A stretch of 43,612 nt of DNA, taken from positions 1-43,612 of the IMG/VR virus record IMGVR_UViG_3300020034_000035, one strand, 5' to 3'. The stretch comes from a virus. The notes beneath the pieces were generated by a model. That model did not search any database. It saw nothing but the letters and a program-made list of their open reading frames with translations, and was not told the DNA's origin. The stretch's first letter is position 1. Every line of letters begins with the position of its first letter. Of this stretch, positions 40,721-43,612 are shown piece after piece. The position numbers and the translations under genes were made by a program.

Positions 40721-41436
40721 CGGATTCCGCTGAAATCACGGACCCCGCCGACCTGTGGGATGCGTATCTCACCGAGACGGATAACCCGTCGCCGCAAGGC
40801 GCAATGGCATTCACGGCAGCATGGTACGAAACGAAACTCGCGGGTACTGGCGATGCTGCCCAAGGGCAGAGTGGCTGCGGCGATCCCGGCTGCAAAGATC
40901 CCCATTGCACCTACGGAAATGACGAGCCAATCGCGTGGCGCGTCACTGACGGCGAAGGCGATTATGATTACAGGACGGAAGAGCCGTCAGCAGATGTACG
41001 CGCGTGGTCTGCCCGATATGGTCGCCAGCATGAGCCCCTCTACGCCGCGCCGCAGCCCGCCAGTAACGCCGGGGACAACACGCTCAAAGACATTGCCGGA
41101 GTAGTTGAACACGTAGCCTTCAATGGCAACGACTGGGACCAGCCGTCTGCGCTTTCGATCCGCACTGCTCAAGCGATTATCGCGTCGGTTCCTGCATTGC
41201 ACGATGTCGCCTACGCACCGAGCGTAGACGCGGAGACGCTGCGCATAAAGATCGCGCGAGTGATTTGCTGCCCGGATGGTTGCATGCAAGAGCGCAATCC
41301 GGATTTTAGCGGCAAGGGCTGCTACACCCAACGCGACACTTACAAATTTTCAAATGTAGGGAAGTCAACCGAGCAGATCATGGCCGCTATCACATCCTCG
41401 ATGTCATCGACCCACCAAAACAGCGGGGCGAAATGA
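40717..41436 (+). CDS. Hypothetical phage protein (239 aa)
   Basis: I chose ATG 40717 (ATGA with the previous stop), rejecting 44 upstream codons. A Cys run (GCGDPGCKDPHC) lies near residue 52. The centre (WRVTDGEGDYDYRTEE and RYGRQHEPLYA) is a common phage pattern of unknown function. The C-terminal third has two more Cys pairs. Confidence 0.6.
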   Translation: MTDSAEITDPADLWDAYLTETDNPSPQGAMAFTAAWYETKLAGTGDAAQGQSGCGDPGCKDPHCTYGNDEPIAWRVTDGEGDYDYRTEEPSADVRAWSARYGRQHEPLYAAPQPASNAGDNTLKDIAGVVEHVAFNGNDWDQPSALSIRTAQAIIASVPALHDVAYAPSVDAETLRIKIARVICCPDGCMQERNPDFSGKGCYTQRDTYKFSNVGKSTEQIMAAITSSMSSTHQNSGAK

Positions 41437-42176
41437 CACGCCCTGTCGCATTGGATTTATTCTGTTGCCAAGGTGGAGCCGGTTACGGGCTCGACGCAGC
41501 GGGCTTTCAGGTAATCGGAGTCGATATTGCTCCGCAGCCGAACTATCCGTTCCCATTCATCCGGGCAGACGCCATCACTACCTTGCCGGCCGGCTTCGAT
41601 TTCGTATGGGCTTCCCCGCCCTGCCAAGCTCACACACGGGCGCAGCGCATCCGGAAGAATAACCACCCGGACCTGATCGAACCCACCAGGGCGATGCTCC
41701 GCGCGTCAGGAATCCCCTACTGCATCGAGAACGTCGAGGGGGCGCCGCTCGAAGACCCTATCGTGCTGTGCGGCTCAATGTTCGATCTGCGAACCTACCG
41801 GCACCGGCTGTTTGAATGCTCGTTTCCGATCGCCGCGCCGCCACATCCAGAACACACTGCTCCGAACACCAAAATGGGCCGCCCGCCGCGAGAGGGTGAG
41901 TTCATGCACATTGTCGGCAACTTTTCCGGCGTCGATCACGCGCGCTGGATCATGGGTACGCAGTGGATGAACCGCAACGGCTTGCGGGAGGCAATTCCGC
42001 CAGCCTTCGCGAAATATATAGGGGAAGCCGCGCTTTCCCAGATCAGATCAGCCCCGGTGATTCTAGCGTCTCACAAATCCGGTGAGCGTGTGCCAAGCAG
42101 CAATGCCGCACTTGCCGGGGCTGGTGCCATGTCTCCGGCATATCGCGAGACCCCTACGGGTGGTGGCGCGTCATGA
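41433..42176 (+). CDS. Orphan C5-cytosine DNA methyltransferase (247 aa)
   Basis: Motif I ALDLFCCQGGAGYGLDAAGF (6-25), the catalytic PPCQ with Cys64, and motif VI ENVEGAP with Glu99-Asn100. The C-terminal part is short and lacks a clear motif X. No restriction enzyme gene is adjacent, so it probably protects phage DNA against host enzymes or changes host methylation. Stop overlaps the end of the converging HTH gene. Confidence 0.85.
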   Translation: MTRPVALDLFCCQGGAGYGLDAAGFQVIGVDIAPQPNYPFPFIRADAITTLPAGFDFVWASPPCQAHTRAQRIRKNNHPDLIEPTRAMLRASGIPYCIENVEGAPLEDPIVLCGSMFDLRTYRHRLFECSFPIAAPPHPEHTAPNTKMGRPPREGEFMHIVGNFSGVDHARWIMGTQWMNRNGLREAIPPAFAKYIGEAALSQIRSAPVILASHKSGERVPSSNAALAGAGAMSPAYRETPTGGGAS

Positions 42177-42377
42177 CGCAAGCCGCTTCATCGCATATTC
42201 GCCAGAGCGGCCGGTCGCGATCAGGTATCGCAGGAACCGCACGGCTGGCGGCGGGATGTCACGTTCCCCGCACGCCCAACGGCGCGACGTTCGATCGTCA
42301 ACGCCAAGCAGCTTTGCTGCCCCCGCCTGCGTCAGGTCGAGGGCTTCGAGGGCTTCGCGGTATTCGTCGGGGGTCAT
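42171..42377 (-). CDS. HTH regulator of a reverse cassette (68 aa)
   Basis: Residues 5-50 (YREALEALDLTQAGAAKLLG, then VDDRTSRRWACGERDIPPPA) form an XRE-like HTH. Coupled by ATGA to the 67-aa gene upstream. Probably represses its own promoter, whose spacer holds a palindrome. Confidence 0.75.
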   Translation of the reverse strand: MTPDEYREALEALDLTQAGAAKLLGVDDRTSRRWACGERDIPPPAVRFLRYLIATGRSGEYAMKRLAS

Positions 42378-42669: not shown

Positions 42670-43612
42670 ATGAATGTCCTCGATTTATTCTCAGGAATTG
42701 GCGGCTTCAGCCTCGGGCTCGAACGGGCCGGAATGCGAACCGTTGCCTTCTGCGAGATCGACCCGTTCTGCCGTCGCGTTCTCGCCAAGCATTGGCCTGG
42801 CGTCCCGATCTTCGACGGACGTTAGAACAATCACCGGGGAAGCAGTCGGACCTGTGGACATCATATGCGGAGGCTTTCCGTGCCAGGACATCAGCTCAGC
42901 CGGAGCGCGTGTCGGCATTGACGGCGAACGCTCGGGGCTATGGGGCGAATACGCCAGAATCATTGGCGAACTTCGACCCCGGTTCGTCATCGTGGAGAAC
43001 GTCGCAGACCTGCTTGTTCGAGGGTTTGGCCGCGTTCTCGGAGACCTGGCCGCGCTCGGGTATGATGCGGAATGGCACTGCATTCCTGCTGCCGCCGTTG
43101 GTGCCGATCATTGGCGAGATCGTATCTGGATCATTGCCTACCCCAACAGCGCAGGGGGTGAGCCGCTTCACATCGGCTGGAGGCAGCAACGCCAGGAAGA
43201 AATGGGCGAAGATGCTGCCGACCGTGACAGCTCACGACTACAGGGGCGGCTGCAAGCCGGAACGATCGGAGAGGATGCGCGAGCAATCAGCGCGGGGCTT
43301 GGACTTGCCCTCTGTGCTCCGATTGCTTTTCCCGAACTCGACGGGGCTGGTTCGCCCGTCCTGGGCCGAGGCGAGGATGGGATACCAGATCGGGTGGACC
43401 GAATGCACGCCCTTGGAAACTCGGTCGTCCCGCAAATCCCGGAAATCATCGGACGTGCAATCATGAGGGCATCAGAGATGATCGCCCCACGATGCTCACG
43501 CTGCGGCGAAACGGTCGAATATGGACACGACTTCGCGCACAAAAGAGATTGCCCTAGCCCCAGCCAGCGCGCGGCTACCACGACTGCACGCAATGCAGCG
43601 ACGGCAAGCTGG
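42670..43612 (+). pseudogene. Dcm-type cytosine methyltransferase, frameshifted and cut by the window end
   Basis: ATG 42670 begins [20 protein letters not shown] (motif I) and [19 protein letters not shown], then meets TAG at 42823. Skipping one G at 42817/42818 restores the frame: [12 protein letters not shown] (motif IV, catalytic Cys), [11 protein letters not shown] (VI), DRIWIIAYP (VIII) and [17 protein letters not shown] (X). After motif X the frame stays open to the last base with Cys pairs (CSRCGETVEYGHDF). It may be a broken gene, a sequencing error or a programmed shift. If intact, it would make an orphan Dcm. Confidence 0.75.
42822..43466 (+). CDS. Alternate-frame ORF lying over the Dcm gene (about 214 codons from first codon of interest)
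   Basis: A third frame is open across the whole Dcm catalytic region to TGA 43464-43466. It reads [80 protein letters not shown] and [15 protein letters not shown]. These are patterns I associate with real phage ORFs coded near Dcm. Some can be explained as a shifted reading of conserved Dcm motifs (SSWRTSQ over VENVA; PTPTA over YPNSA). A start is unclear: the nearest is TTG 42792. Either an overprinted gene or a conserved shadow. Confidence 0.35.

Follow-up and report, generated by a model that had tools for sequence, protein, structure and literature searches.

A frame overprinted on a phage Dcm-type methyltransferase gene very probably encodes the second subunit of a split enzyme

The window, by which we mean the whole stretch of DNA analysed here (43,612 nucleotides, positions 1 to 43,612 of IMG/VR virus record IMGVR_UViG_3300020034_000035), carries near its end a Dcm-type cytosine-5 DNA methyltransferase gene overlapped by a second open frame (Table 1). 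A first reading made from the letters without database searches (the sequence-only reading) had noticed two protein-like frames over the Dcm region, and this was confirmed. In the ORF list frame 3 is open from 42408 to a TGA stop at 43464-43466, every string quoted by that reading is present in it, and frame 2 carries Dcm motifs IV, VI, VIII and X. The alternate ORF extends about 20 residues beyond the 10-residue ending noted at that time. Database profiles match both frames: frame 2 matches PF00145 (E=1.7e-26) and phrog_363 (E=6.6e-51), and residues 9-167 of the alternate frame match phrog_1008, labelled 'DNA methyltransferase' (E=2.1e-23). No Pfam or NCBIfam model matches the alternate protein in frame 3 of the window. 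Another C5-methyltransferase-like ORF lies 0.5 kb upstream on the plus strand (41433-42176), with SPPCQ and ENV motifs, a match to PHROG_363 (E=1.3e-32) and no Pfam match; as a within-window control, it possesses no +1 ORF longer than 52 aa. A small Xre/HTH-like regulator (PHROG_14076) is encoded on the opposite, minus strand between both methyltransferase genes (42171-42377).

The Dcm gene of the window is split because of one extra G at 42817/42818, where the window reads GACGGACG and its closest relative, L027, reads GACGACG. Alignment to L027, L028 and L107 gives a single gap at this point, and the gap falls at the same place against L017. Beyond the extra base the Dcm frame continues in frame 2 instead of frame 1, and the alternate ORF in frame 3 instead of frame 2, so that motif I lies in frame 1 (42670-42825) and the other motifs in frame 2. 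With it, the Dcm ORF starting at ATG 42670 ends at 42825, and the alternate ORF starting at ATG 42674 enters the Dcm frame. This shift had escaped the sequence-only reading. A mutation and an assembly error are indistinguishable here from sequence, and the catalytic gene copy of the window is either inactivated or mis-assembled; with this base in place, it is doubtful that the window's own copy functions. L027 has a GTG/TTG start candidate at a place similar to that of the GTG in the window. Downstream, the Dcm frame of the plus strand stays open past the end point of L027 to the window end (43466-43612, reading MIAPRCSRCGETVEYGHDFAHKRDC), perhaps as the start of a next gene in the same frame or through a second indel.

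Table 1. Positions of the two overlapping frames and their landmarks in the window
Feature	Position	Strand	Remarks
Catalytic subunit gene, 5' part (Dcm frame 1, motif I)	42670..42825	+	ATG 42670; homologous to L027 Dcm residues 1-50
Stop of Dcm frame-1 ORF	42823-42825	+	due to extra base
ATG four bases after Dcm start	42674..42676	+	cut off from alternate core by extra base
Remainder of catalytic subunit, frame 2	42819..43466	+	PF00145, phrog_363; stays open beyond 43466 to window end
Dcm motif IV (PCQ)	42869-42895	+	frame 2
Dcm motif VI ENV	42995-43003	+	frame 2
Dcm motif VIII	43115-43141	+	frame 2
Dcm motif X GNSVVP	43415-43432	+	frame 2
Alternate protein, proposed target-recognition/motif IX subunit	42834..43466	+	frame 3, +1 to Dcm
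GTG, possible in-frame start of alternate protein	42909..42911	+	no in-frame ATG before conserved core after indel
Conserved 19-residue block, alternate N-terminal half	43035..43091	+	only ever seen in +1 frame
LPTPTA unit 1, beginning of alternate C-terminal half	43134..43151	+	frame 3
13-residue unit 2 of alternate protein	43212..43250	+	over non-conserved part of Dcm
Motif IX-like 17-residue end	43347..43397	+	family consensus LNPxWVEWLMGFPxGWT

We investigated the coding status of the alternate frame in 80 homologous IMG/VR loci. The second frame had no part in their choice, since they were fetched with the Dcm frame alone. The longest +1 ORF spans 126-356 codons in all 80 homologues, and the longest +2 ORF 33-157. 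Synonymous codons were then shuffled within each Dcm gene, with protein and codon usage kept. Shuffled genes rarely had a +1 ORF as long as the real one (p<=0.01 in 63 of the 80 homologues), and the +2 frame reached this level in none (0/80). Stops in the +1 frame numbered 306 against 570 expected from the shuffles, and those in the +2 frame 1075 against 978. In AT-rich homologues the +1 stops lie mostly upstream of motif IV, and the alternate core is mostly open in homologues with a GC content of 47%. Frequent stops among close homologues had been named in advance as evidence against an overprinted gene; the alternate core is interrupted in just 13 of 230 homologues with a full Dcm, and the claim was not refuted. 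Several of these 13 stops lie near the core end, or in lineages in which motif IX has moved into the Dcm frame.

Third bases of fourfold-degenerate Dcm codons were compared among 62 non-redundant homologues (less than 70% identical). Conservation is near the null over Dcm residues 1-10 and 261-270, low in mean z (0.2-2.7) up to residue 50, and strong across the greater part of residues 91-250, where z rises to as much as 41; examples of frozen codons are CGA (46/46), GTG (47/47) and GGG (61/61). Some columns at residues 11-60 are also above the null, indicating that relatedness inflates z somewhat. Substitution counts from independent pairs of close homologues do not depend on z inflated in this way. 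These were expressed per codon at Dcm positions 1, 2 and 3, of which position 1 is position 3 of the alternate frame. They amounted to.137,.091 and.476 at the Dcm N-terminus, before the alternate core;.147,.067 and.248 over motifs V-VIII;.348,.139 and.122 between motifs VIII and X; and.056,.056 and.322 at motif X. Amino-acid change between motifs VIII and X was.377 in Dcm versus.179 in the alternate frame. Comparison of the window with L027 gave 20, 5 and 1 substitutions between motifs VIII and X, and 0, 0 and 4 at motif X. These spectra indicate that both frames are constrained over motifs V-VIII, that the alternate frame is dominant between motifs VIII and X, a dominance the sequence-only reading had missed, and that Dcm prevails again at motif X. 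That reading had also raised the possibility of substitution patterns explained by Dcm constraint alone; in close pairs, the changes from motif VIII to motif X obey the +1 frame and not the Dcm frame. Its proposal, a gene overprinted on Dcm, selected in its own right and linked to phage DNA methylation, receives strong support from the shuffles, the third bases and the substitution spectra, and its remark that the 13-residue unit lies over a non-conserved part of Dcm was borne out. Judged from these sequence comparisons, the alternate frame is almost certainly a real protein-coding gene.

Next, we examined what the two frames encode. In the AlphaFold model of the L027 Dcm frame, block means are 78-98 over residues 1-160, near 40-50 over residues 167-246 and about 85-94 at the motif X end. 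The confident part matches the HaeIII and HhaI methyltransferases in the PDB over approximately 160 aligned residues. By this model the Dcm frame is predicted to fold as the catalytic domain of a C5-methyltransferase, and the 80 residues between motifs VIII and X to be disordered; in the substitution counts this stretch evolves freely in the Dcm frame. In C5-methyltransferases, the target-recognition region and motif IX sit where this disordered stretch lies. The window's Dcm product carries the PF00145 motif set, namely I, IV (PCQ), VI (ENV), VIII and X, with motif I in another frame. The small domain, consisting of the target-recognition region and motif IX, is missing from the same chain, as judged from the low AlphaFold means over residues 167-246, the free evolution of this stretch and the motif IX-like sequence in the +1 frame.

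The C-terminal half of the alternate protein consists of PTPTA units followed by LNPxWVEWLMGFPxGWT. A profile of this half matches inside the Dcm frame of single-chain phage methyltransferases, including ShiLan gp70 (E=5e-15), L276, L282, L290, L298 and others, and the PF00145 alignment on the L276 chain reaches model position 314. The phrog_1008 family is common to the window's alternate frame and the C-terminus of ShiLan gp70 (E=2e-61 for the latter). The alternate N-terminal half was never matched within the Dcm frame in the profile search. Modelled alone, the alternate protein gave low confidence in AlphaFold (mean pLDDT 60, pTM 0.29), and neither a fold match nor a sequence match to it was found in the PDB; such a poor model of the lone protein might be expected of a subunit. 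The sequence-only reading was right about overprinting, and its 'unknown function' can be refined, given the homology of the C-terminal half with the target-recognition/motif IX region of single-chain phage C5-methyltransferases.

Both frames are overlapped, always in +1 and in the same register, in 266 of the 266 loci then examined, and no free-standing copy of the alternate gene was found among them. After an actinophage-like locus set had been added, loci were classed by motif position with regular expressions, which gave no call in 92 loci and found motif IV or motif VI to be lacking in 22. The main class has motif IX in +1 and motif X in the Dcm frame (131 loci, with the Dcm frame open through X in 130). 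The Dcm frame ends before motif X in 26 loci, where motifs IX and X are both in +1 (e.g. Samy, L299 and L314). Both motifs are in the Dcm frame in about 21 loci (L005 and ShiLan among them), and a few loci have them in +2. Such swapping of motifs IX and X between products would be hard to explain unless both build one enzyme. Three IMG/VR loci (L318, L323 and L332) have a FSETWP block in +1 and motifs IX and X in +2; parts of a single methyltransferase seem to be spread over three frames there, unless frameshift errors are responsible. A Dcm gene in the prophage of E. coli PCP07014 (L268, 2501-3262) is annotated as a pseudogene with an internal stop, and a motif IX-like block is readable in +1.

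Databases usually keep one of both frames. The alternate frame is annotated in Microcystis phage Mwe-JY08, Rhodococcus phage ReT1v-2 and Vibrio phage 1.291.O, and the Dcm frame in Synechococcus S-H1, Acinetobacter ABMM1, Sulfitobacter phiGT1, Salmonella S9-5 and E. coli PT62; the Samy annotation contains parts of both.

Cumulatively, the observations are the following: 1) both frames are under selection; 2) the Dcm frame is missing its small domain; 3) the alternate C-terminal half is homologous to single-chain C-termini; and 4) the two frames occur together without exception in the loci examined. Because of this C-terminal homology, we read the alternate protein as a second subunit of the same enzyme, and on sequence grounds it very probably supplies target recognition and motif IX to a split C5-methyltransferase. 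The Dcm frame would encode the catalytic subunit, in which motifs I-VIII bind AdoMet and carry out catalysis, and an unstructured linker connects them to motif X, the closing helix. The +1 frame would be translated as a separate protein, starting either inside the Dcm gene or four bases after its start. Its C-terminal half would constitute the missing small domain, in which the PTPTA region may recognize the target and is followed by motif IX. The N-terminal half, which occurs only as an overprint on motifs V-VIII, probably anchors this small domain to the catalytic one. The putative heterodimer would act on phage DNA, methylating a specific site, and thereby probably protect the phage against host restriction. 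A role in sheltering phages from restriction is attributed to orphan methyltransferases.

A different route to a complete enzyme is programmed frameshifting, by which ribosomes would pass from the Dcm frame into +1 after motif VIII and produce a single chain with the small domain. It would yield the canonical order of motifs I-VIII, target recognition and IX; the 26 loci whose Dcm frame stops after motif VIII, with IX and X in +1, are compatible with it, as is the true in-frame fusion in some lineages. However, selection on the +1 frame extends upstream over motifs V-VIII, a part that such a product would leave unused, and motif X remains in the Dcm frame in the commonest class. Start sites speak against it as well. 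Of 61 non-redundant loci, 54 have an in-frame ATG close to motif IV (shuffled mean 28.5, maximum 37), and in 20 of the 61 a Shine-Dalgarno match of at least 5 bases accompanies it (shuffled maximum 6). In the closest relatives of the window and others, the usual alternate start is an ATG four bases after the Dcm start, in an ATG/GTG/TTG-AATG arrangement; alternate-gene start codons differ among lineages. The enrichment of start codons and Shine-Dalgarno matches upstream of the core favours separate initiation, and we consider frameshifting unlikely.

Still less likely is an independent overprinted protein outside the enzyme, such as an anti-restriction or regulatory factor. The N-terminal half has no known relatives, as such a protein might; yet other phage C5-methyltransferases carry the C-terminal half in frame as their own C-terminus, the alternate frame was never seen without Dcm in the loci examined, and the Dcm frame is without its small domain. 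That the alternate frame is open and looks conserved merely through the conserved Dcm protein and its codon usage has hardly any probability left. Conserved Dcm codons do yield part of the pattern, as the sequence-only reading had cautioned, and chance stops are few in GC-rich members. Against this stand the codon shuffles, the frozen third bases, the switch of the substitution spectra to the +1 frame between motifs VIII and X, and a core mostly open even in members of lower GC content. Chance openness is refuted by these results, confirming that the +1 frame is not open as a by-product of Dcm conservation. Least probable of all is an RNA or DNA element (a packaging signal or RNA structure), which would freeze synonymous sites too and is refuted by the protein-type signature between motifs VIII and X, where changes pile up at the +1 third position (Dcm position 1) and are rare at the second.

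The proposed two-subunit enzyme resembles known split C5-methyltransferases in part. For M.EcoHK31I, Lee et al. reportedly described in 1995 a small ORF nested within the large one in a different frame; the second gene inside the first, in another frame, is likewise the arrangement in the window and the 266 loci. The large polypeptide of M.EcoHK31I (YGGCCR) carries motifs I-VIII and X, its small polypeptide carries motif IX, and its predicted target-recognition domain has been placed in the large subunit, whereas the second subunit of M.AquI (CYCGRG) contains the distal variable region and motifs IX-X (PMC3404938). The window and the class of 131 loci with motif IX in +1 and motif X in the Dcm frame are like M.EcoHK31I at the level of reading frames. 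Unlike in M.EcoHK31I, the VIII-X region of the large subunit is unconstrained and predicted to be disordered in the phage loci. No identifiable copy of M.EcoHK31I was found in the collections searched, plasmids included; the likeness described here is one of motif layout. The 26-locus class (e.g. Streptomyces phage Samy), with motifs IX and X on the second product, is like M.AquI; the window differs from M.AquI in having motif X in the catalytic frame, and its two frames overlap deeply.

PHROG_1008, which matches both the window's alternate frame and the ShiLan gp70 C-terminus, mixes alternate-frame products with in-frame C-termini and is labelled plain methyltransferase, with no subunit role stated. 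The insertion in ShiLan also places an out-of-frame gene within a phage methylase. It is mobile and encodes a homing endonuclease, whereas the window is without an insertion and its second frame overlaps conserved catalytic motifs; we therefore rejected it as the same phenomenon and regard it as a different kind of hidden gene. The prophage enzyme M.BatI is reported to be remarkably small for a C5-methyltransferase, its recognition region being very short (PMC8936443), and it might represent the catalytic subunit of an overlapping pair of this kind. The openly licensed literature searched contained no description of such an overlap in phages, and it is absent from the passages searched in a frameshift survey and in a review of frameshifting. 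Split C5-methyltransferases are known from M.EcoHK31I and M.AquI; what is new is the wide spread of the overlap and the movement of motifs IX and X between frames.

On balance, we favour a wider reading, in which a very large and mostly mis-annotated class of phage and prophage C5-methyltransferases would be split into overlapping genes. Their target-recognition module (PTPTA and motif IX, sometimes with X) would move between frames, as a +1 overlap, with a truncated partner or as an in-frame fusion, and the N-terminal half of the second subunit would have been invented by overprinting. If this is true, the annotation shows just half an enzyme for many phage and prophage 'DNA cytosine methyltransferases'. 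Expressing the annotated protein alone, or assigning a specificity to it, would fail, and codon-optimised genes would be especially affected, as their second frame is destroyed. The locus presents a long same-strand overlap in double-stranded DNA phages and prophages, with both frames measurably selected and the dominant frame switching along the gene, and this overlap makes the origin of overlapping genes directly testable.
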